A stretch of DNA of 42,486 nucleotides from a bacterium (GTDB lineage: Bacteria; Patescibacteriota; Dojkabacteria; JAKAPS01; JAJZLI01): positions 1 through 42,486 of the forward strand of contig JAJZIL010000009.1 in the NCBI GenBank assembly GCA_021810605.1, written 5' to 3'. The position numbers were made by a program, and so were the translations under genes. The notes beneath the pieces were generated by a model. That model searched no databases and had not been told where the DNA came from. It worked only from the letters and a program-made list of their open reading frames with translations. Shown one piece after another: positions 11,679 through 42,486 of the stretch. Within the stretch, counting starts at the first letter, position 1; each line of letters opens with the position of its first letter.

Positions 11679-12206
11679 ATGAATACAATTGGAAAACTAC
11701 CTGCGAGCTTACTGCTCGTTACTGCTTTCCTTATATCCCCAATACTATTTTTAACAAAACCAGCTATATCAAAAAATAAAACACCTAATAAAATAGGTCT
11801 TAGTTATTTTGTTGAAAAATCAGTAGTATTGACAACTAGAGTAAAACAATTACCAAAAGTTAGTGAAAATATAACTACTGGTGTGATTGATAGAGCATAT
11901 TCTTCATATACTGTAGCAATGAGTATACCTTCTAGCGCACAATATGGATCTATAATAAATGCTGCAGCTGCTAAATATAATATTAGTAGTGCTCTGATGA
12001 ATAGTATTATATCTTGTGAAAGTGGATATAATCCACAAGCATATAATCCATCTGGTGCATCTGGAATTGCACAGTTTATGCCATCTACTTTTTATTCTTC
12101 TTGGAATATATATAGTTCAGGTGGTCTATGGAATCCAACCGCACAGATATATGCCATGGCTCTAAAAATTTCTGAAGGTGGAGTTAATGCTTGGACTTGT
12201 AAGTAA
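11679..12206 (+). CDS. Secreted lytic transglycosylase (SLT domain)
   Basis: Predicted peptidoglycan-cleaving enzyme of 175 residues. A hydrophobic N-terminal segment (about residues 8-30) would act as a signal peptide or membrane anchor, and a Ser/Thr/Lys linker follows. The SLT/goose-lysozyme-like domain spans about residues 88-175, with the catalytic glutamate in SCESGYNPQAYNPSGASGIA (Glu114) and AQFMPSTF next to it. The family C-terminal Trp-Cys is present (AWTCK). Cys113 and Cys174 could form a disulfide outside the cell. The domain is compact, like those of other small-genome bacteria. It likely remodels the cell wall or helps insert surface structures, possibly acting on a host wall. 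Confidence 0.9.
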   Translation: MNTIGKLPASLLLVTAFLISPILFLTKPAISKNKTPNKIGLSYFVEKSVVLTTRVKQLPKVSENITTGVIDRAYSSYTVAMSIPSSAQYGSIINAAAAKYNISSALMNSIISCESGYNPQAYNPSGASGIAQFMPSTFYSSWNIYSSGGLWNPTAQIYAMALKISEGGVNAWTCK

Positions 12207-12335
12207 TTTCTAAAACTTTAGAGACTGCCCCTCTATATTAGTTAAATCTCAAATATACACATATTTATCCTAATTACAAATAGGGATTAAGTTAAATTTT
12301 AAATAAGATATTAATAAAAATTAAATAGTTATATA

Positions 12336-13028
12336 TTAATAATCGACATTAAAATTACTAATATCAGGAGAGAATGTATAATTTCCACCAAAAGACCCAA
12401 TCATTTCATTTAGATTAAACACAGGAGCAATATAGGTATTCTTATTAGATAATATATTAAAATTACTATTCGTTGTAATATTCGTATTATACAAAGGTAG
12501 ATTTACTAAAGTACCATTTGTTAAAACTGCAGCAACATATTTAAAGTATATTTTAACATTACTATAAATACCTACAGGAATTGAATAATGAGATAGATAA
12601 AAGACATTACCATTCTCATAACTAACTAGATTTACTAAATTACTATTTACAGGAATACTTATCCATCTTCTAGATGTTGCAGAATAAACTAAAACTTTAG
12701 ACAAAATAACTCTTAGACTACTTACTTGAAAATATGATATTCCATTATTACTACTATTAGTTCCTAAATCAGCAGTTATTCCAAAATTTAGATTACCATA
12801 TTTTATAGAATTATTACTCACTTTTGAGCTTATAGATGAAACATTTAGAGATGTACCATACTTTGCTACAAAAGCATTATTTGATGTAAATGTATTAGAT
12901 AATGAAGCACCTATTACTATACCTAAAGATAGAATTATAGATGCAAAACAAGTAAACCAAACCATCTTAAACCAATTGATTTCTAAATCATTCTCTATTG
13001 GATTATCTAACTTATGTTTTATTCTCAT
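12336..13028 (-). CDS. Membrane-anchored extracytoplasmic protein, DUF4382-like
   Basis: Protein of 230 residues. A cytoplasmic N-terminus of about 22 residues is followed by one transmembrane helix (about 23-45). The remaining Ser/Asn-rich beta-type sequence would lie outside the cell. The middle part (SSLRVILSKVLVYSATSRRW, then a Val/Leu-rich strand and IPVGIYSNVKIYF) resembles the DUF4382 pattern, in which a strand with a Trp is followed by a P-x-G-x-Y turn. That assignment is from memory of the pattern and is tentative. The gene follows 2 bases after the protein at 13031, so the two probably function together. Confidence 0.5.
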   Translation of the reverse strand: MRIKHKLDNPIENDLEINWFKMVWFTCFASIILSLGIVIGASLSNTFTSNNAFVAKYGTSLNVSSISSKVSNNSIKYGNLNFGITADLGTNSSNNGISYFQVSSLRVILSKVLVYSATSRRWISIPVNSNLVNLVSYENGNVFYLSHYSIPVGIYSNVKIYFKYVAAVLTNGTLVNLPLYNTNITTNSNFNILSNKNTYIAPVFNLNEMIGSFGGNYTFSPDISNFNVDY

Positions 13029-24304: not shown

Positions 24305-25093
24305 TTAAAAAATTAGAATAAAATACCCTATAAATAAGGTTATTAAGAATATGAAAATTAAGGATAATATTATAAAAAGAAGATTTTTTTCAATTGATGC
24401 CTTTGAAAGAGGATTACGAGAAACTCCTAGTAAAGAATGTTTCAAAGATACACTTGTTCCATAAATAAGAGTCACAATACCTGAGATTATTATTATAATA
24501 GATAGTATTATATTAAAAAATGAAATATTCTTCCCAGTAACTTTCTTTCCTAAAGATAGTATTATTCCAGAAAAATTACTACTATTAGAGAAATATGATA
24601 TTCCTATCACAACTGGTATATATTCTACATAAATAAGAGATTTTTTCCCATTAAAAGTAATATATTTTTTATATAAATAATTTTTATATGAAAAATTTGC
24701 TATTGCTTTACCTAAAATCTCACCATTATTTAGATTCAATTCTCCTACTCCAGGAATAAATGATGAGGTTATTAAATCTCCTGATTTAATAGTTCCATTA
24801 ACATTTGAGACTTCTACATTAACTATACCTGAACTTACTACTGGAACACTTTTAGTATTAGATATCCCTACTGAAATTGAACCTGTATAATCAGCAACAC
24901 CTATCATATTATTATCATTTGGACTAGTAGTAGGATGAACTCCTAGAACTATATTATTTCCACCAACAGAGACTATTTGTCCTTGACTAATCTTTCCTAC
25001 TAAACTTTGATAATATTGAGTTATTACTCCATCTGCATATACAGGTGATATAAAAAAAATTAACAAAAGTACTGATATAAAAAATTTATACAT
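24305..25093 (-). CDS. Membrane-anchored fibre-type domain protein (paralogue of the gene at 15504)
   Basis: Protein of 262 residues from the ATG at 25093. An ATG three codons upstream lies inside the -10 box and is rejected. A signal peptide (about 1-20, ending near VYADG) is followed by the domain GQIVSVGGNNIVLGVHPTTS, NGTIKSGDLITSSFIPGVGE and NGEILGKAIANFSYKN. Two C-terminal transmembrane helices are separated by a loop with SRNPLSK. Organisation and motifs match the protein at 15504, and the domain is also near the C-terminus of the giant fibre protein. It lies upstream of surface module 1 and is divergent from module 2, with a shared promoter region. Confidence 0.68.
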   Translation of the reverse strand: MYKFFISVLLLIFFISPVYADGVITQYYQSLVGKISQGQIVSVGGNNIVLGVHPTTSPNDNNMIGVADYTGSISVGISNTKSVPVVSSGIVNVEVSNVNGTIKSGDLITSSFIPGVGELNLNNGEILGKAIANFSYKNYLYKKYITFNGKKSLIYVEYIPVVIGISYFSNSSNFSGIILSLGKKVTGKNISFFNIILSIIIIISGIVTLIYGTSVSLKHSLLGVSRNPLSKASIEKNLLFIILSLIFIFLITLFIGYFILIF

Positions 25094-25100
25094 ATAGTAC

Positions 25101-25128
25101 ATTATAAAGATTTCTATACAATTGACAA
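25101..25128 (-). promoter_or_regulatory. Minus-strand half of a shared divergent promoter
   Basis: On the minus strand TTGTCA (25128-25123) and TATAAT (25106-25101) are 16 bases apart. The -10 ends 7 bases before the ATG at 25093, which predicts a leaderless transcript. Its -35 hexamer overlaps the -35 of the plus-strand promoter at 25122 by five bases. Confidence 0.65.
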
Positions 25129-25155: not shown

Positions 25156-27009
25156 ATGAAAAAGTTGCTATTTATATTTTCTTTTATATTTATTTTTCTT
25201 ATTATCCCTTTTATATTTAAAGTTTATGCAGCTCGACTTACCCCAATACAAGATATTATGAGTAATAATACTGTATCTGCTGTAAGTAACAATAACCTTA
25301 TATTTACAGCAAATGGTGGATTACCTAGTGATGCTAGTGTAACAATAATTTTCCCATCAGGATTTAGTAATATAAACGTATCTACTGCAACATCAAATCT
25401 TACAGGATCCACTTTTTCTTTATCGGGAAATACAGTAACCTTAAGTACTACTAATGTATCTGAATCTCCAGGCTACCAGGTTAATATTAATAACATATAT
25501 GCTACAAATCCTTCATCTATATCATCTTCAACAGTACAATATATAATAAATGTCTCTGATTCCGCAGGAGATAGTGCAGGAATAGGTGTAGTTATAACAT
25601 CTTATTCCTCCTATGGATCAGGACCTTCAGGAGATCAATATCAACAAACTATTACTATCAATAATACAAATACTGTAGCACTTACAAATTATCAAATAGA
25701 GTTAACTTTAAATACTGCAAGTTTAATTTCTGCAGGTCAGATGCAATCAGATTGTGCTGATATAAGGTTTACAGATTCTTCTGGAATAATTTTACCTTAC
25801 TGGATTGAGAGTGGATGTAATACAACAACAACCCAAATTTGGGTTAATGTAAATAATATAGCTGCCTCATCAAATACTCTAATATATTTATATTATGGAT
25901 CTCCTTCTGCAAATATAGGAGAAAATCCATATAACACATTTAATTATTTTGATCCAGGGAATTTATTATCTTCATGGACTACTGTAGGGTCTGCGGGACA
26001 GAATACAAACATAGGAGACCCAGCTCCATCATATTATGCTAATTCTTCAAATGGAGATTATATGTATAAAAATATACAATTACTTCCAGGAGAAGAGATT
26101 ACTTTCAATGGAGAGACTACAGCATCAGGAGATTTCTTTTTTATGACAAATTCTTCAGGATTAGGTCAAATGTACAGTTTTGGAACTAATTCTGGTGAAT
26201 TTGGTTTTGCAACAACAAATTCTTGGACTAGTTGGAATGGTCCATCAGGAACCTCCCCTATAGTTGCTAATACTTGGTATAAATTTCAAGTTATAGTAAA
26301 TTCTGCAGGAACACAGGCATCCTTATATTACAAAGCTACTACGGGAGATTCTCCTACAATTAATGGAACTTTAGTTGGAACATATAATATCACTAATAAT
26401 GGAGGATATATAGGACTTGTAGGAGCTGGAGCTGGAGGAAGTAACATCACTTATTGGAATAATATTATAGTTAATCAATATAACTCAATAAATCCAACTG
26501 TAACAATAGGAACTACAGTTACAGAACTTCAAAATAATCAAGTAGAACTATCTTTAAATGTATCTCCATATATTATTTTTGGAGTATCATCCAATACAGT
26601 TAATCTAGGACTCCTATCTTTTTCATATATTACTTCTCAATCTAATTATTTATCTTTATCTACAAATGCAGAAGATGGAGCAAATATTAGTGTTGAAGAT
26701 GAATATTCTGGATTATATAGTAGTCTAGATTCATATACTATACCTTCTTCTACACAAACACTCTCAGTTGGATCTCAAGGTTATGGTATCAATGCTTCTA
26801 GTAGTGCTATCAATATCCAATATCCATATAATTCATCAGGAGATAGTGTAGGTGGACTTACATCATCTCAAAATGTAGAACTCGCATCATCTAATAATAT
26901 AGTGCAAAATGCTAATATAAATCTAAACTATCTCTCTTCTGTATCTGTTAGTACTCCAGCTGAAGTTTATATAGATAATATAACCTATATTGCTTCAGGA
27001 AATTTCTAA
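25156..27009 (+). CDS. Surface protein with inserted DUF2341 and LamG-like domains, SGNF C-terminus (module 2)
   Basis: Protein of 617 residues with a signal peptide (1-25). Residues 28-150 and 455-617 match the first and second halves of the protein at 23121. Shared segments include IYATNPSSISSSTVQYIINV, LSTNAEDGANISVEDEYSGL, GSQGYGI, YPYNSSGDSVGGL and the end DNITYIASGNF. Between them is an insert of about 300 residues. It begins with a DUF2341-type segment (TITINNTNTVALTNYQIELT, then CADIRFTDSSG and LPYWIESGC; Cys200 and Cys221 may pair) and continues with a concanavalin/LamG-like beta sandwich (about 268-442). These domains usually bind glycans or act in adhesion. It is followed 3 bases later by its DUF916-like partner. 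Confidence 0.75.
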   Translation: MKKLLFIFSFIFIFLIIPFIFKVYAARLTPIQDIMSNNTVSAVSNNNLIFTANGGLPSDASVTIIFPSGFSNINVSTATSNLTGSTFSLSGNTVTLSTTNVSESPGYQVNINNIYATNPSSISSSTVQYIINVSDSAGDSAGIGVVITSYSSYGSGPSGDQYQQTITINNTNTVALTNYQIELTLNTASLISAGQMQSDCADIRFTDSSGIILPYWIESGCNTTTTQIWVNVNNIAASSNTLIYLYYGSPSANIGENPYNTFNYFDPGNLLSSWTTVGSAGQNTNIGDPAPSYYANSSNGDYMYKNIQLLPGEEITFNGETTASGDFFFMTNSSGLGQMYSFGTNSGEFGFATTNSWTSWNGPSGTSPIVANTWYKFQVIVNSAGTQASLYYKATTGDSPTINGTLVGTYNITNNGGYIGLVGAGAGGSNITYWNNIIVNQYNSINPTVTIGTTVTELQNNQVELSLNVSPYIIFGVSSNTVNLGLLSFSYITSQSNYLSLSTNAEDGANISVEDEYSGLYSSLDSYTIPSSTQTLSVGSQGYGINASSSAINIQYPYNSSGDSVGGLTSSQNVELASSNNIVQNANINLNYLSSVSVSTPAEVYIDNITYIASGNF

Positions 27010-27012
27010 TTT

Positions 27013-27918
27013 ATGAAATATAGGAGAATCTTAATAATATCTTTAATACTATCATTATTTTTTTTAAGAAATAATATATATGCTAAAGGGGAAAATTTTA
27101 GTAATTTAGAAGTATCTCCTGTACTTAATACATTAAACTTAAATAGAGGACAGAGATATAAAGGATTTATTACACTAATCAATAGGAGTAATACAAAACA
27201 ATATATATCCATAGGTGTATCTGGATTCAGACAATACAAAGAGACTAATAAACCTCTATTTTCCTCAAAAATAAACTCTATATCTAAATCAATACACTGG
27301 TTTATAATACAAAATAGTTCGACTATAAAACCTTTTCAGAGTATAAAAATACCTTATTCTATAATAGTACCTTCAAATGCATCTTCTGGAGGACATTTTG
27401 CTGCAATAACAATTGATCAGAGAAATAAATTTTCAAAAATCATAGAATCAATTAGACCTTTATTTATAATAAATATAAAAGGAAATATAAATATATCTGG
27501 TTTTATAAAAAAATTTAGTACAGATAATCTATTTAATTTTTCTCCAAATATTCAATTTAGTACAACTTTTGAAAATACAGGTAATATAGAATTTGCTCCA
27601 TATGGATTTATCATAATAAAAAATATTTTTGGACAAGTTGTTAAAATAATTCCTATAAATACAAAAAAATCATTAGACTTACCAGAGAGTACAAGACTAT
27701 ATAAAAGTGAGTTTATAGATAATAATTTTTTTAATACAGGAGTTTACTCAGCACAATTAATACTAAGTTTTGGTAATACTGCAAAGGTATATAATATAAA
27801 TAAATTTTCTACCTTTTATATAATTAATCCTTATTTTTCAATTCTATTGATCATAATAATGTTTTCTATTATCATATACATATCATTAAAGATAAAAAAT
27901 GAAAAGAAGTATTTTTAA
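27013..27918 (+). CDS. DUF916/WxLIP-like membrane-anchored surface partner (module 2)
   Basis: Protein of 301 residues with a signal peptide (about 1-24). The N-terminal beta-sandwich domain starts NLEVSPVLNTLNLNRGQRYK, followed by GFITLINRSNTKQYISIGVS. The middle is IPYSIIVPSNASSGGHFAAI, a close fit to the DUF916 consensus in which a P-x-x-A-x-P-G-x-x-x-A-I turn follows a Pro-rich strand. One C-terminal membrane helix lies at about 276-295. FENTGNIEFAPYGFIIIKNI parallels the partner of module 1. The gene is 3 bases after the module 2 surface protein gene and overlaps the next surface gene by 20 bases. It likely holds the module 2 surface protein at the cell envelope. Confidence 0.7.
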   Translation: MKYRRILIISLILSLFFLRNNIYAKGENFSNLEVSPVLNTLNLNRGQRYKGFITLINRSNTKQYISIGVSGFRQYKETNKPLFSSKINSISKSIHWFIIQNSSTIKPFQSIKIPYSIIVPSNASSGGHFAAITIDQRNKFSKIIESIRPLFIINIKGNINISGFIKKFSTDNLFNFSPNIQFSTTFENTGNIEFAPYGFIIIKNIFGQVVKIIPINTKKSLDLPESTRLYKSEFIDNNFFNTGVYSAQLILSFGNTAKVYNINKFSTFYIINPYFSILLIIIMFSIIIYISLKIKNEKKYF

Positions 27919-29314
27919 AATAGGATCCTTGATAGTTGTATTAGGAATTATAATATTTAATATACGTTCTGTATATGCTCAAGTACTTAGTAACTATACT
28001 TCAACATCATATATACTTTCCGATCCTATCTTTGGAGAATCTGGACCTTATTCTCAATCTACTAATTTTAAAGAGAAAGATGCACTTGGACAATTAGTTA
28101 CAGGAGTATCTCAATCTCCTAATTTTATTCTTAAATCTGGATTTGAATACTATTCAAGTCAATCTGTACCATCAATAACAATGACTATTAATACTAATAC
28201 TATTAATTTTAATAATATACTTCCTGGAACTATATATAAATCTCCCACAAATACTATTATAACTATATCTTCTAACTCAGAGAACGGATATAACCTTTAT
28301 GCAAACCAAAATAATAACCTCATTAATTCTCAAGGAGATCAAATACCTCCTGTTAATAATACAGCAACTACAACAATTGCTCAACCATATACATCATCTT
28401 CAAATACAGGATTAGGATATAATTGTTCTACTTCAAACTCATTTTATCAAGCTATATTAGCTGATTCTCCTCAAATTTTTATTCCGTTATCAGAAACTAG
28501 TGGTACTACTGCATATGATTTATCAGGAAATAATAATAATGGAACTTATTCTGGAGGATATACTCTAGGAGAGAAAGGTCCTATTTCTAATCAAAATTTA
28601 GGGTATTCTACACTATTTGATGGACCATCAACACAAGGAGAAGTCACTGGATCTTTTCCAAATGCTACAAATACTAATGTTACAATTACTCTCTGGGCAA
28701 GATATCCATCACTATCTTCTCATGGAACATTTATACATATAGGAAGTGGAAATGGTTATAGTTTAGGTATAGGTAATACTACATATGGAACTGCAGGAAA
28801 TCAATTATTAATACTTTACGATTATGTAAGGTGGATACCTACTGGATATTATATTCAGCCTGGAGCATGGCATTTTTATACATTAGTATTGAATTCAGGA
28901 CAACCTACTCTTTATGTTGATGGAGAAGAAGTATTTTGGAATACTGGAAATTCACCATCTACTCCATCACCATATTTTGCAATAGGAAATGATAATGGAG
29001 GTACTTCAGGGACAACAAGATTTTATCAAGGAAGAATTGCTGATGTTGCAATCTATAATACAGATCTAACACAAGCACAGATTCAAACTATTTTTAATGC
29101 AGGAATCAATAATACATCGCCTTTTTGTAATAATGATTTTATAAACTCAACTTACTACAGACAATTTTCTAATACTCCAACTGAATTTGCTTCTTACTCC
29201 TCTATTGCTAATAACCAATCTATTACCATAAACTATGCTGTAAGTATTAGTTCTTCACAAGCTTCTGGGAATTATACTAATACTATTAATTATACTATAT
29301 CCGGAAACTTTTAA
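27899..29314 (+). CDS. Surface protein with a LamG domain inserted between two cysteines, SGNF C-terminus (module 3)
   Basis: Protein of 471 residues with a signal peptide (about 1-27). Residues 28-85 match a recurrent N-terminal segment of Patescibacterial secreted proteins (YTSTSYILSDPIFGESGPYS, then KSGFEYY). A beta-sandwich scaffold starts at about 90 (SITMTINTNTINFNNILPGT, ISSNSENGYNLYA) and resumes at about 411, ending YTNTINYTISGNF. Between Cys176 and Cys410 lies a concanavalin-type LamG domain (about 186-403) with DLSGNNNNGTYSGG, GAWHFYTLVLNSGQPTLYVD and GRIADVAIYNTDLTQAQIQT. The two cysteines are well placed to close the base of the insert. LamG domains of this type usually bind carbohydrate, so this is a plausible adhesin. 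Confidence 0.78.
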   Translation: MKRSIFKIGSLIVVLGIIIFNIRSVYAQVLSNYTSTSYILSDPIFGESGPYSQSTNFKEKDALGQLVTGVSQSPNFILKSGFEYYSSQSVPSITMTINTNTINFNNILPGTIYKSPTNTIITISSNSENGYNLYANQNNNLINSQGDQIPPVNNTATTTIAQPYTSSSNTGLGYNCSTSNSFYQAILADSPQIFIPLSETSGTTAYDLSGNNNNGTYSGGYTLGEKGPISNQNLGYSTLFDGPSTQGEVTGSFPNATNTNVTITLWARYPSLSSHGTFIHIGSGNGYSLGIGNTTYGTAGNQLLILYDYVRWIPTGYYIQPGAWHFYTLVLNSGQPTLYVDGEEVFWNTGNSPSTPSPYFAIGNDNGGTSGTTRFYQGRIADVAIYNTDLTQAQIQTIFNAGINNTSPFCNNDFINSTYYRQFSNTPTEFASYSSIANNQSITINYAVSISSSQASGNYTNTINYTISGNF

Positions 29315-37167: not shown

Positions 37168-40100
37168 TTATTGTATTACTACATAATTCCATGAATAAGT
37201 ACTATTTGATATTGGAGCTTTCGTAAAGTTTAGTGAAAACCCAGTTGTAGTTTCTGATACATATGCACCTAGATTAGATGATCCTGTAAGCGAGTTATTA
37301 GGAGTAATTATAACAATTGGAGTTATTTTATATGGAGATGTAAATACCAAATTAAGCATTGATCCTAAAGAAGTGGTAGTACCTGTAGTGAGAGTAATAT
37401 TTCCAGATATATCAGTTGATCCAGTACTTAATACTGCAGAAGCCCCAACTCCAGCTGACAAATTAGGATTTATTTGAGGAAGAGTCCCTATTGGAACTAT
37501 ATGTCCTGCTATTAGTAAATCTCCTGTAATATTCAGTGTACCTGATACATTAATATTACTTGCAATATTAATTGTATTATTAGTACTATCTAAGGTAAAG
37601 ATATTTAATATACCAGAAGGAGAGACTATTGGATTATAGTATTCATTTTTAACTAACATTAATATTTCTCCTTTAAGGTAAACTTTCCCATTATATGTAA
37701 AATTTTGAACTCCTGGAGTAGAAGGTGTTAAGGAATTTAAAGCCATACCAACTACTTGTCCTTGAGAATTTGCAACCTCTCCAAATCCTGCAAATATTGA
37801 CCCTGTTATCATATCTCCAGTTGTAATATTTCCATTATAATTTGTAACTTTAACCATTACTCTCCCAGCTAATGCTAGTGGAACAGAGTTTAAAATATGT
37901 TGTTGATGTAAAGTTATACTTGGATTAGTAGATATAACTCCAAGAGTATTTGAAGAATACGGATGAGTAGTTGGAATTGCTGTAAAATTATTTACACTAT
38001 CAGATGAAGTATTTACACTAGTAATACTTACTATATCTCCAGAGGAAGCACCATTTGCACCTATTACATTTTCAGCAAGATCAGCTGGAATTCCTCCAGT
38101 AGTAATACCTCCTCCAAATATTGCATTTCCATATGGATCTAATGAAAATATATCTTGATACCCTCCATTAACATTTGAGGATATAGTAAAATCTCCTGGA
38201 GATGAAGAATTTACTATTTGAGACGAGGAATATACTATTGTTGATGTAGGGGAATAATTACCAAACCCCCCAATCTCATATACATAGCCATTATACTCTA
38301 CTGATGTAGCATAATATGTAGTATTAGGAAGAGATGTAGTTGTACTCCAAGTACCCAATGTTCCGTTACTATTGATTGGAGCATAATATACTATCGATAC
38401 AGGATTATCATTACCAATTCCACCCATCTCATATACATATCCATTATACTCTACTGATGTAGCCTCACTAGTAATCTCAGGAAGAGATGTGGTGGTATTC
38501 CATGTACCTACTGTTCCATTACTATTGATTAGAGCATAATATACTGTAGAGAAATAAGTACTACCATTATATCCACCTATCTCATACACATATCCATTGT
38601 ACTTTACTGATGTAGCATTATATGTACCCTCAGGAAGAGATGTTGTAGCACTCCATGTGCCCAATGTTCCATTACTATTGATTGGGACATAATATACACT
38701 TGATAGATAAGTACTACCGTTATATCCACCTATCTCATACACATATCCATTGTATTCTACTGATGTGGCATTATCTATAGCCTCAGGAAGAGATGTAGTG
38801 GTAGTCCATGTACCTAATGTTCCATTACTATTGATTGGAGCATAATATACCGTAGATACAGTAGTACTACCGTTATATCCACCTATCTCATATACATATC
38901 CATTGTACTCTACTGATGTGGCATCATCTGTAGTTTCAGGAAGAGATGTAGTGGTATTCCATACCCCTAATGACCCATTACTATTGATTGGGGCATAATA
39001 TACCTCCGATAAATAACTACTACCGTTATATCCCCCGATCTCATACACATATCCATTATATTCTACTGATGTACCCTGAGTAGTAACCTCAGGAAGAGAT
39101 GTGTTTGTAGGCCAAGAAGGAATTGAAGGACTTGATGTAGATTGCGAAATATAATTATTTTTCCCTAAATTTAAACTAAAACCTGAAGACTGTATATCTA
39201 ATGGAGACGATGCTGAAATTAATGTATTGTTAGGATTTGTAAGATTTATTGCAGAGCCAAAATTACTCTGTCCTAATACATTCAAACCTCCTCCTATATT
39301 CATATCTCCAGATAAATTTATATTTCCTCCATTACTTTGTGTAGTTTGAAGATTTGTCAATACACTCCCCTTAGCTATCTGTGCGAAACCTCCCTCATTT
39401 AAAGATCTAAAATAATATACACTTGATACAAAACCAGAACTATAATTATCCCCCCCAATCTCATACACATATCCATTGTATTCTACTGATGTAGCACTAT
39501 CTGTAGCCTCAGGAATAGATGTGGTAGCACTCCATGTACCCAATGTTCCATTACTATTGATTGAGGCATAATATACATTTGATACATTAGTACTACCGTT
39601 ATATCCACCTATCTCATACACATATCCATTGTATTCTACTGATGTAGCACTATCTATAGTCTCAGGAAGAGAGGTAGTGGTAGTCCATACCCCCAATGTT
39701 CCATTACTATTGATTGGGGCATAATATACACTTGATACATAAGTACTACCAGTATATCCACCTATCTCATATACATATCCATTATATTCTACTGATTTAG
39801 CATCAACTGTAGTCTCAGGAAGAGATGTAGTGGTAGTCCATGCCCCCAATGACCCATTACTATTTATTAGAGCATAATATACCGTAGATACATGAGCACT
39901 ACCATTATATCCCCCTATCTCATATACATATCCATTATACTCTACTGATGTAGCACCATCTGTAATCTCAGGAAGAGATGTAGTGGTAGTCCATGCCCCC
40001 AATGACCCATTACTATTTATTAAGGCATAATATATATTTGATACCTCAGCACTACCGTTATATCCACCTATCTCATATACATATCCATTATACTCTACTG

Positions 40101-42486
40101 ATGTAGCACCATCTGTAATCTCAGGAAGAGATGTAGTGGTAGTCCATGTACCTAATGTTCCATTACTATTGATTGGAGCATAATATACCGTAGATCCAAT
40201 GGCACCATTACCAATCCCCCCAATCTCATATACATATCCATTGTACTCTACTGATGTAGCACCAACTGTAGTCTCAGGAAGAGATGTAGTCTGAGATATA
40301 TTGGTATCTATAAATGAATTAGTATTAGATACATACTCTACTGAACTACCAAATGTACTAGAAGTAGATCTATATATATCATAATATGTTGCTCCTGGAA
40401 CACTATTCCAACTAAGAGATATTTGATTTGTATTTGTTGTTGCTGTATTTGTACTAGGTGTGAGTATACCTGTTGTTGCTATATTTCCTGAATCTGTATA
40501 TGTTATTGTAGATCCTCCAGAAACTGATGCTAGAAAAGTCTCGCCTCCTGATGTTGTAGATTTATATATTTTATACCCAGTAGCTCCTGTATCCTGTACC
40601 CAATTCAATGTTATAGGATATGCAGTTGAACCTTCTATTCCTGATACCTGAGATGATACAGTAGTCTCTCCATTTGAAGTTGTTGCTGTTATCTCATAAT
40701 AATAAGTTGTCGATGCTACTAAATTAGATCCCACTGATCCAGATGTTCCTACACTCGCACTTACTCCTGTTGGTACTGCCACTGGAAGTGTTGTTATTTT
40801 AGTTAATTGAGAAGGTAAGGATTGACCATTACTATTCTCTGCTACTACTTCATAATAATACGTACCTGCATTTAATTCTCCTCCTGAGATACTAGAAACC
40901 GCTGATAATCCAGTAGGAGTAGATAAGGATTGTATATTTAAATCTGCTTGTGTTAATAGAGTATTTCCATTTATTGTGTTTGTATCAACTCCAGAAATAT
41001 TCAAATTTCCAGATGCTGTTAGATTTCCTCCATATACTCCAGAACCTAGAAAATTTTCACTTCCTATTGATGTTATATCTCCATTCAGTGCATTTATACT
41101 CACTGATGGATTAAGTTCATTATTACCTATATTTAATACCCCTTCATTTATTTGAGAATAATATACTGAGGATAAATATGCAGTACCATTATATCCTCCT
41201 ATCTCATAAATATATCCGCCATACTCTACTGAGGTTGCACCAGTTATTCCTACTGACAATACTGTTGATTCTGTATTCCAGGTTCCTAATACTCCATTTA
41301 ATCCAATTTGTGTATAATATACTGATGATGAATATATAGTACCATTATAACCTCCTATCTCATAAATATATCCGCCATACTCTACTGAGGTTGCACCAGT
41401 TATTCCTCCTGGCAATGCTGTCGACTCTGTATTCCAGGTCCCTAAGACTCCATTTGATCCAATTTGTGTATAATATACTGATGATAATTCAGTAGTACCA
41501 TTATATCCTCCTATCTCATAAATATATCCGCCATACTCTACTGAGGTTGCCTGATCTATTCCTCCTGGCAATGCTGTCGACTCTGTATTCCAGGTCCCTA
41601 ATACTCCATTTAATCCAATTTGTGAGTAATATACTGATGATGAATATGTACTAGTAGTGCCATTATATCCTCCTATCTCATAAATATATCCGCCATACTC
41701 TACTGAGGTTGCATTAATTATTCCTCCTGGCAATACTATAGATTCTCTATTCCAGGTCCCTAAGACTCCATTTGACCCAATTTGTGCATAATATACTGAT
41801 GATAAAAATATACTTGTACTATTATATCCTCCTATCACATAGATATATCCACTATACTCAACTGAGGTTGCATAACTTATTGGTTGTGGCAATGTCGTTG
41901 ACTCTGTATTCCATGTCCCTAAGACTCCATTTGACCCAATTTGTGCATAATATACTGATGATGAATATGTACTAGTAGTACCATTATATCCTCCTATCTC
42001 ATAGATATATCCGCCATACTCTACTGAGGTTGCATAATCTAATTCTCCTGGCAATGTCGTCGACTCTGTATTCCAGGTCCCTAGATTACTAGCTTGTACA
42101 GAATTAGGATCTATTGTAAGATTACTCGATGTTAAAATACTATTTAGACTAGTATTGTTTAAATTTAATGTACCTCCAGATGCTGTTAGATTTCCTCCAT
42201 ATACTCCAGAACCTAGAAAATTTTCACTTCCTATTGATGTTATATCTCCATTCAGTGCATTTATACTCACTGATGGATTAAGTTCATTATTACTTATATT
42301 TAATATCCCTTCATTTATTTGAGAATAATATACTGATGATGAATATGTAGTACCATTATATCCTCCTATCTCATAAATATATCCGCCATACTCTACTGAG
42401 GTTGCCTGATCTATTCCTCCTGGCAATGCTGTCGACTCTGTATTCCAGGTCCCTAATACTCCATTTGATCCAATTTGTGTGTAATA
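37168..42486 (-). CDS. Giant surface fibre protein with kelch-like propellers (5' end outside the window)
   Basis: At least 1772 residues; the frame is open to the right edge, so the true start lies outside. Reading from the N-terminal side: the end of one kelch-like propeller; a spacer; a complete propeller of six repeats; fibronectin-III-like domains; a second set of six; a fibre-like linker; a third set of six; a glycine-turn domain (DLAENVIGANGASSGD, then GNITTGDMITGSIFAGFGE); and a beta-rich tail ending NYVVIQ. Each repeat is about 50 residues with TSVEYNGYVYEIGGYNG, VYYAPINSNG and LGTW, i.e. one kelch blade. There is no membrane helix in the visible part. Low-complexity Ser/Thr/Asn/Gly composition fits an exposed adhesin. 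The ligand is unknown. Confidence 0.85.
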   Translation of the reverse strand, partial: YYTQIGSNGVLGTWNTESTALPGGIDQATSVEYGGYIYEIGGYNGTTYSSSVYYSQINEGILNISNNELNPSVSINALNGDITSIGSENFLGSGVYGGNLTASGGTLNLNNTSLNSILTSSNLTIDPNSVQASNLGTWNTESTTLPGELDYATSVEYGGYIYEIGGYNGTTSTYSSSVYYAQIGSNGVLGTWNTESTTLPQPISYATSVEYSGYIYVIGGYNSTSIFLSSVYYAQIGSNGVLGTWNRESIVLPGGIINATSVEYGGYIYEIGGYNGTTSTYSSSVYYSQIGLNGVLGTWNTESTALPGGIDQATSVEYGGYIYEIGGYNGTTELSSVYYTQIGSNGVLGTWNTESTALPGGITGATSVEYGGYIYEIGGYNGTIYSSSVYYTQIGLNGVLGTWNTESTVLSVGITGATSVEYGGYIYEIGGYNGTAYLSSVYYSQINEGVLNIGNNELNPSVSINALNGDITSIGSENFLGSGVYGGNLTASGNLNISGVDTNTINGNTLLTQADLNIQSLSTPTGLSAVSSISGGELNAGTYYYEVVAENSNGQSLPSQLTKITTLPVAVPTGVSASVGTSGSVGSNLVASTTYYYEITATTSNGETTVSSQVSGIEGSTAYPITLNWVQDTGATGYKIYKSTTSGGETFLASVSGGSTITYTDSGNIATTGILTPSTNTATTNTNQISLSWNSVPGATYYDIYRSTSSTFGSSVEYVSNTNSFIDTNISQTTSLPETTVGATSVEYNGYVYEIGGIGNGAIGSTVYYAPINSNGTLGTWTTTTSLPEITDGATSVEYNGYVYEIGGYNGSAEVSNIYYALINSNGSLGAWTTTTSLPEITDGATSVEYNGYVYEIGGYNGSAHVSTVYYALINSNGSLGAWTTTTSLPETTVDAKSVEYNGYVYEIGGYTGSTYVSSVYYAPINSNGTLGVWTTTTSLPETIDSATSVEYNGYVYEIGGYNGSTNVSNVYYASINSNGTLGTWSATTSIPEATDSATSVEYNGYVYEIGGDNYSSGFVSSVYYFRSLNEGGFAQIAKGSVLTNLQTTQSNGGNINLSGDMNIGGGLNVLGQSNFGSAINLTNPNNTLISASSPLDIQSSGFSLNLGKNNYISQSTSSPSIPSWPTNTSLPEVTTQGTSVEYNGYVYEIGGYNGSSYLSEVYYAPINSNGSLGVWNTTTSLPETTDDATSVEYNGYVYEIGGYNGSTTVSTVYYAPINSNGTLGTWTTTTSLPEAIDNATSVEYNGYVYEIGGYNGSTYLSSVYYVPINSNGTLGTWSATTSLPEGTYNATSVKYNGYVYEIGGYNGSTYFSTVYYALINSNGTVGTWNTTTSLPEITSEATSVEYNGYVYEMGGIGNDNPVSIVYYAPINSNGTLGTWSTTTSLPNTTYYATSVEYNGYVYEIGGFGNYSPTSTIVYSSSQIVNSSSPGDFTISSNVNGGYQDIFSLDPYGNAIFGGGITTGGIPADLAENVIGANGASSGDIVSITSVNTSSDSVNNFTAIPTTHPYSSNTLGVISTNPSITLHQQHILNSVPLALAGRVMVKVTNYNGNITTGDMITGSIFAGFGEVANSQGQVVGMALNSLTPSTPGVQNFTYNGKVYLKGEILMLVKNEYYNPIVSPSGILNIFTLDSTNNTINIASNINVSGTLNITGDLLIAGHIVPIGTLPQINPNLSAGVGASAVLSTGSTDISGNITLTTGTTTSLGSMLNLVFTSPYKITPIVIITPNNSLTGSSNLGAYVSETTTGFSLNFTKAPISNSTYSWNYVVIQ
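37640..38090 (-). other. C-terminal fibre domain shared with two anchored proteins
   Basis: Part of the giant protein. It has DLAENVIGANGASSGDIVSI, then LGVISTNPSI, ALAGRVMVKVTN, NGNITTGDMITGSIFAGFGE and GQVVGMALNSL. The same order of strands and glycine turns makes up the extracytoplasmic domain of the proteins at 15504-16271 and 24305-25093. I infer one domain family used in two settings. Confidence 0.6.
38230..39110 (-). repeat. Kelch-like propeller C, six repeats
   Basis: Six tandem coding repeats of about 150 bases, each giving one blade with SLPE, TSVEYNGYVYEIGG and VYYAPINSNG. The fourth repeat has TSVKY and the fifth EMGG. Repeats are much closer to one another and to block B than to block A, which suggests gene conversion or recent expansion. 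Confidence 0.85.
39400..40290 (-). repeat. Kelch-like propeller B, six repeats
   Basis: Six tandem repeats of about 150 bases with the same blade motif as block C. The fourth has AKSVEY and the sixth EIGGDNYSSGF. The block ends at SVYYFRSLNEGG, where a non-kelch linker (with INLTNPNNTLISASSPLDIQ) leads to block C. Confidence 0.85.
40300..40930 (-). other. Fibronectin type III-like domains of the giant protein
   Basis: Two to three tandem Fn3-like units. Motifs include TYYYEVVAENSNGQSLPSQL, TYYYEITATTSNGETTVSSQ, ITLNWVQDTGATGYKIYKST and ISLSWNSVPGATYYDIYRST, i.e. the Trp and Tyr core residues of Fn3 strands B, C and F. They act as a spacer between propellers A and B. Confidence 0.75.
41009..41169. 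repeat. Direct repeat, copy 1 (161 bases)
   Basis: Nearly identical (two visible mismatches) to 42176-42336, offset by exactly 1167 bases (389 codons), so in frame. It codes for the spacer between a fibre-like segment and the last blade of a propeller (GDITSIGSENFLGSGVYGGN). Confidence 0.9.
41155..42085 (-). repeat. Kelch-like propeller A, six repeats
   Basis: Six tandem repeats of about 155 bases coding for blades with LPGGI, TSVEYGGYIYEIGGYNG and VYYTQIGSNGVLGTWNTEST. The wording differs from blocks B and C (GGYIYE versus NGYVYE; QIGSNGV versus PINSNGT), so this block belongs to a separate lineage of propellers within the protein. Confidence 0.85.
42176..42336. repeat. Direct repeat, copy 2 (161 bases)
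   Basis: Partner of 41009-41169. Similarity continues on the high-coordinate side into the next propeller blade with a few more mismatches up to about 42410, implying that the whole 1167-base spacer-plus-propeller unit was duplicated. Confidence 0.9.

Follow-up and report, generated by a model that had tools for sequence, protein, structure and literature searches.

Layout of the giant kelch gene and closure of its propellers

The window, i.e. the whole stretch of 42,486 nucleotides that was analysed, constitutes one entire contig (C2) of a 746 kb genome which is distributed over 19 contigs and estimated to be 96% complete. Its placement within the Candidate Phyla Radiation is sound. It harbours the 3' part of a giant gene whose frame of 1,772 codons starts, without a 5' boundary, at the window edge and reads through to the stop codon (Table 1). 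Using a slightly relaxed blade motif, 19 kelch blades are recognised within this frame in runs of 1+6+6+6, the single blade being located at residue 28 and the runs of six at residues 152-417, 743-998 and 1138-1393. This corresponds to the arrangement which the original prediction had derived from the motif TSVEY, namely six repeats in each of three blocks plus the end of a fourth one. The exact motif is present in 17 of the 19 blades, the other two reading KSVEY and TSVKY. Since Pfam Kelch_1 (PF01344) matches the frame in 14 stretches above its gathering score (E=5.2e-49), these repeats are not a product of chance. Further Pfam matches to HigB_toxin, DUF421, DUF1889 and DUF1480 lie inside kelch repeats and were thus taken as spurious. 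The encoded part of the fibre contains no cysteine, 0.7% lysine, 0.2% arginine and only ~7% charged residues altogether. The blade consensus (VYEIGG) commonly features a glutamate at a position which is often hydrophobic in other kelch blades.

Table 1. Features of the giant fibre gene in the window and of its candidate 5' part on a second contig
Feature	Position	Strand	Basis or remark
3' part of giant kelch-propeller fibre gene	37168..42486	-	1,772 codons, 5' open
Last blade of propeller block broken by contig end	42310..42486	-	motif and blade profile
Fibre-like linker (LNISNNELNPSVSINALNGDITSIG...)	42079..42309	-	internal repeat comparison
Propeller A, six-bladed kelch, with velcro strand D at its N-terminal side	41143..42096	-	
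Spacer region from propeller A to B, Fn3-like beta-sandwich	40282..40869	-	GH85_C E=1.4e-6; weak Fn3 structure matches
Propeller B, six kelch blades	39379..40314	-	AlphaFold2 pLDDT about 84-94 for the greater part
Fibre-like linker joining propeller B to C	39136..39378	-	model pLDDT mostly 26-55
Propeller C, six kelch blades	38224..39135	-	AlphaFold2 pLDDT 94.3, pTM 0.91
Fibre scaffold of the C-terminus (..ADLAENV..LGVISTNP..VPLALAGRVMVKV..GDMITGS..), plus final beta domain	37171..38223	-	fold low-confidence in model
Candidate 5' part of giant fibre gene	contig C13, L005:2-2131	-	homology

In most blocks a strand D (W..TTSLP) is found ahead of the first blade while none follows the last one, which therefore has to draw its missing strand from the N-terminus. 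Pairing of this strand with the A-B-C strands of the last blade would then close the ring. The AlphaFold2 model of residues 725-1772 displays two separate propellers with a pLDDT of around 90, the linker and most of the C-terminus being of low confidence. Propeller C modelled alone, as had been proposed for one six-repeat block, is predicted to fold into a closed six-bladed ring (pLDDT 94.3, pTM 0.91) for which Foldseek yields target-normalised TM-scores of 0.84-0.86 to the best solved six-bladed kelch domains, including 0.84-0.85 over 268-273 columns to SAKe6. At the sequence level, too, the best PDB matches of the propellers are KLHL domains and the designed kelch proteins with six blades known as SAKe6. 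An open solenoid is ruled out by the models and the strand pattern. Sequence closure, the six-fold counts in relatives described below and the two structure models together support closed, six-bladed propellers in series, in agreement with what had been proposed from the blade motif.

The spacer between propellers A and B matches GH85_C with 29.0 bits (E=1.4e-6, cut-off 27) and known Fn3 structures faintly (E about 0.1). The Pfam fn3 profile does not match in the window; in one relative (L039) it reaches 24.0 bits (cut-off 25). Of the Fn3 spacers originally proposed, a weak resemblance to Fn3 and GH85_C remains, and we regard the designation "Fn3-like" as fair but unproven. The supposed likeness of the C-terminus to phage fibres is weakly supported: four of seven homologous C-termini match the PHROG "tail fiber protein" family phrog_19602 (best E=6e-5), whereas the C-terminus encoded in the window does not match it. 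One homologous C-terminus matches H_lectin faintly, and a profile of this region finds no match in the PDB. The window also encodes, at 24305-25102 (-), a 265-residue exported membrane protein in which the scaffold domain from the C-terminus of the giant fibre recurs, and stand-alone relatives of about 260-290 codons are present in other genomes of the family. What are probably further surface proteins, containing the domains DUF2341 and Laminin_G_3 (concanavalin-like), are encoded at 25156-29314 (+).

The candidate 5' part on a second contig

On contig C13 of the same assembly a frame runs off the contig end in the same sense as the gene in the window. It begins with a signal peptide (MYTHLKIRQIIYIILVLIVGIYIALGRVYA-APSS, read by eye) and a conserved domain starting with NYQGRL, which are followed by fibre-like linkers and, at the contig end, four kelch blades. 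A genome of the same genus contains N-terminus, propellers and C-terminus in one uninterrupted frame of 3,712 codons, the N-terminal domain of which is 85% identical to that of C13 while its C-terminus is 73% identical to that in the window. Because this frame is homologous to both ends, we read C13 and C2 as one gene; most likely, judged from these sequences, the 5' part of the giant gene lies on C13. The recovery of the full gene from a neighbouring contig, which had been proposed, yields this candidate 5' part. The contig ends show no exact overlap, only the last 31 bases of C13 recurring in C2. If both parts form one gene, the protein would comprise at least about 2,480 residues plus the content of the gap. 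The broken block would consist of four blades on C13 and one on C2, to which a total of six fits if about one is missing.

Since the 3,712-codon frame holds N-terminus, propellers and C-terminus together, the fibre is evidently exported. A cytosolic protein, the outcome which would have spoken against the originally proposed surface role, is ruled out because the C13 part as well as relatives possess signal peptides. No anchor is recognised in the fibre of the window.

Contig breaks inside giant kelch-type genes are also encountered in relatives. In a genome consisting of two contigs (G006), both of them begin within the fibre C-terminal domain and one ends within the N-terminal domain, which suggests that repetitive giant fibre genes break the assembly.

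Blade counts, duplication and distribution among relatives

Blades in related genes were counted by means of a purpose-built blade profile, and the boundaries of runs were checked by reading the blades; runs truncated at a contig end were not counted. Forty-three of the 48 complete runs, which do not represent independent events because shared genomes and intragenic duplication account for many of them, comprise 6, 12 or 18 blades (37, three and three runs, respectively). Two further runs, both in L037, consist of one blade, an Fn3-like insert and then five blades. In one relative such an insert stands either between blade 1 and the remaining five blades or between strand D and blade 1, the total being six in both cases. 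One run is irregular (L062, 3+3), and because L042 and L047 contain one five-blade run each, six is not absolute. Clean multiples of six are also present in seven distant families of the phylum (L106, L107, L111-L115); in others (L102-L105, L108-L110, L116) the blades are not cleanly resolved. Taken together, six is a near-strict rule with exceptions; short-read metagenome assemblies can collapse near-identical blades.

That the exact counts are an artefact of repeats being collapsed or expanded during assembly is extremely unlikely. Contig ends do fall inside these genes and the two five-blade blocks exist, yet multiples of six recur in many independent assemblies and families, and the modelled structure itself closes at six.

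Two propeller-sized stretches of 921 bp within one giant gene of a relative (L056:8870-9790 and 11966-12886) are 100% identical, which in terms of sequence marks a recent duplication or conversion of a whole propeller. In the gene of the window, internal repeats are 82-94% identical, and its bases 1-312, covering blade and linker, share 94% identity with bases 1168-1479. An alignment of 334 blades shows conserved strands and variable columns between LP and ATS (DA loop) as well as after GG (BC loop). In Keap1 the DA and BC loops form one ligand-binding face (PMC4668279), and the propellers would, by virtue of the same loops being variable, present a changeable binding face. The variability could instead reflect relaxed constraint rather than selected diversity.

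Each of the seven other family members searched contains kelch matches, as does one of two genomes of the sister family, while outside both families a single weak case, containing stops, was found at phylum level. In a broader draw, a propeller profile matches 24 of 380 genomes of the phylum, several times in frames of 1,500-3,200 codons. The C-terminal scaffold domain is found, without kelch repeats, in 31 of 97 genomes across class and phylum. As it spans so many genomes and the kelch repeats are concentrated in the family, the propellers of this family ride on a fibre scaffold of wider distribution, while elsewhere in the phylum propellers are sparse.

Other exported scaffolds carry such propellers as well. 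In L039 and L047 they are borne by an N-terminal membrane segment (read by eye) and a collagen-like stalk, the latter matching PF01391 in L039 with 26.2 bits (E=7e-6, cut-off 27.2) and bearing at most indirectly on a homotrimeric assembly such as that of phage tail fibres. L043 combines propellers with a C-terminal membrane anchor (read by eye), and L055 possesses a different N-terminus.

Giant kelch genes of a second lineage, encoding 12 or 18 blades (L052, L055, L060, L065), belong to a conserved three-gene cassette in which the giant kelch gene is followed, always in the same order, by genes for exported proteins of ~310 and ~350 residues. The first of these partners, encoded by the next gene in L055, shows a sub-threshold WxLIP_PGBD match. 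The genome of the window itself encodes a second kelch protein on contig C1 (L006:1262-3298, -). Its 666 residues comprise a signal peptide, exactly six blades, a Ser/Asn-rich linker and RCC1-like repeats (YTFGDAKFYGS), which recall the RCC1 propeller of PilX2 from Saccharibacteria.

Known relatives and the proposed role of the fibre

The propellers share with KLHL12, Keap1 and SAKe6 the blade consensus (GG, Tyr, Trp), the number of blades and the closed fold, with TM-scores of about 0.8-0.86 normalised to the target. Unlike BTB-kelch (KLHL) proteins, the fibre shows no BTB domain in Pfam scans of both parts, and it differs from these kelch domains in being exported and in carrying several propellers in series. 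Moreover, Keap1 closes its ring with a C-terminal strand A (PMC4668279), whereas the propellers in the window do so with an N-terminal strand D. The giant SPEARE-like proteins of nanohaloarchaea resemble the fibre in that they are very large and exported, occur in ultra-small symbionts and combine propellers with Ig/Fn3-like domains (PMC10266531). Neither the WD40/PQQ-type propellers nor the VirB4/TraG ATPase domain which characterise them (PMC10266531) were found by Pfam in the window and C13 parts, the gap between the contigs being unseen. PilX2 of Saccharibacteria, a proposed pilus adhesin with an RCC1-type propeller (PMC12206443), likewise is a patescibacterial propeller protein with a presumed role in host adhesion (PMC12206443). 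It carries, however, a seven-bladed RCC1 propeller on a minor pilin instead of six-bladed kelch propellers in a giant fibre. A type IV pilus adhesin of the PilX2/PilY1 kind is not indicated, the fibre N-terminus consisting of a Sec-like signal peptide and the YQGRL domain with no adjoining pilus genes recognised. In the literature searched, mostly non-subscription papers, no description of kelch proteins in Patescibacteria was found. Both the kelch fold and giant proteins on the surface of tiny symbionts have been described before; serial and almost always six-bladed kelch propellers in Patescibacteria appear to be a new combination as far as this literature goes.

The product of the gene is, in our view, probably a giant surface fibre which is exported, consists of closed six-bladed kelch propellers arranged like beads and serves as a multivalent adhesin with loop-diversified faces. 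The Sec-type signal peptide, the conserved N-terminal domain, the series of closed propellers, the fibre-like and Fn3-like linkers and the class-wide C-terminal scaffold are those parts of this reading which are established or strongly supported. The fibre would project from the cell, each propeller combining a constant frame with a changeable DA/BC surface, and duplication of whole propellers would let it grow and add binding sites. Its ligand may reside on the surface of the cell on which the bacterium lives, which is the most speculative step; host contact, for which there are precedents in Patescibacteria and DPANN archaea, is plausible by analogy.

A fibre serving general attachment to biofilm matrix, minerals or sediment, cohesion between cells or a protective coat, rather than specific host contact, seems rather unlikely to us but deserves serious weight. 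The related records are metagenome-assembled genomes with no known host, no link between the propellers and a host ligand is apparent, and several unrelated scaffolds bear the same propellers. On the other hand, variation on the very face which binds the ligand in Keap1 fits specific recognition, and an obligately episymbiotic life is described for those Patescibacteria that have been cultivated (PMC12206443). Much less credit is due to the idea that the propellers are enzymes resembling NanM epimerase or galactose oxidase: the matches to Pfam NANM (E=3e-18) and to an NCBIfam mutarotase model (E=2e-17) cover only parts of the models, the latter with 63 bits against a cut-off of 243, and the blades are near-identical copies while an active site would normally need blade-specific residues. 

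A phage or prophage tail fibre, or recent acquisition from one, we hold to be highly improbable. The PHROG matches of homologous C-termini would agree with it, as would the presence of kelch propellers in virion proteins of jumbo phages (e.g. PhiPA3) and a weak match to one structural protein of a Paenibacillus phage. Yet the jumbo phage proteins are phage-encoded and share about 14-23% identity, and no relative of the fibre was confirmed by sequence among 2.9 million viral contigs. In addition, the fibre has a signal peptide, every member of the bacterial family that was searched has kelch relatives, and the neighbouring frames, SufB on the window contig and GuaB-, UvrD- and LepA-like ones on C13 (the last three named from sequence), do not form a virion gene neighbourhood.

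Returning to the multivalent adhesin, a broader and more tentative proposal is that it typifies a new class of host-recognition fibres in Patescibacteria. Here the closed kelch propeller would be the unit of evolution, which may be duplicated or lost while its DA/BC face diversifies, giving rise to a lineage-specific binding repertoire on a class-wide scaffold. The near-strict six-fold count along with ongoing duplication offers a neat natural example of how repeats evolve when they have to form a closed ring. As a single block of 316 residues is predicted to fold alone, it is an expressible candidate for binding tests. The means by which ultra-small episymbiotic bacteria recognise other cells and hold on to them are largely obscure (PMC12206443), and the family of duplicable propeller modules described here provides concrete candidates for this task.
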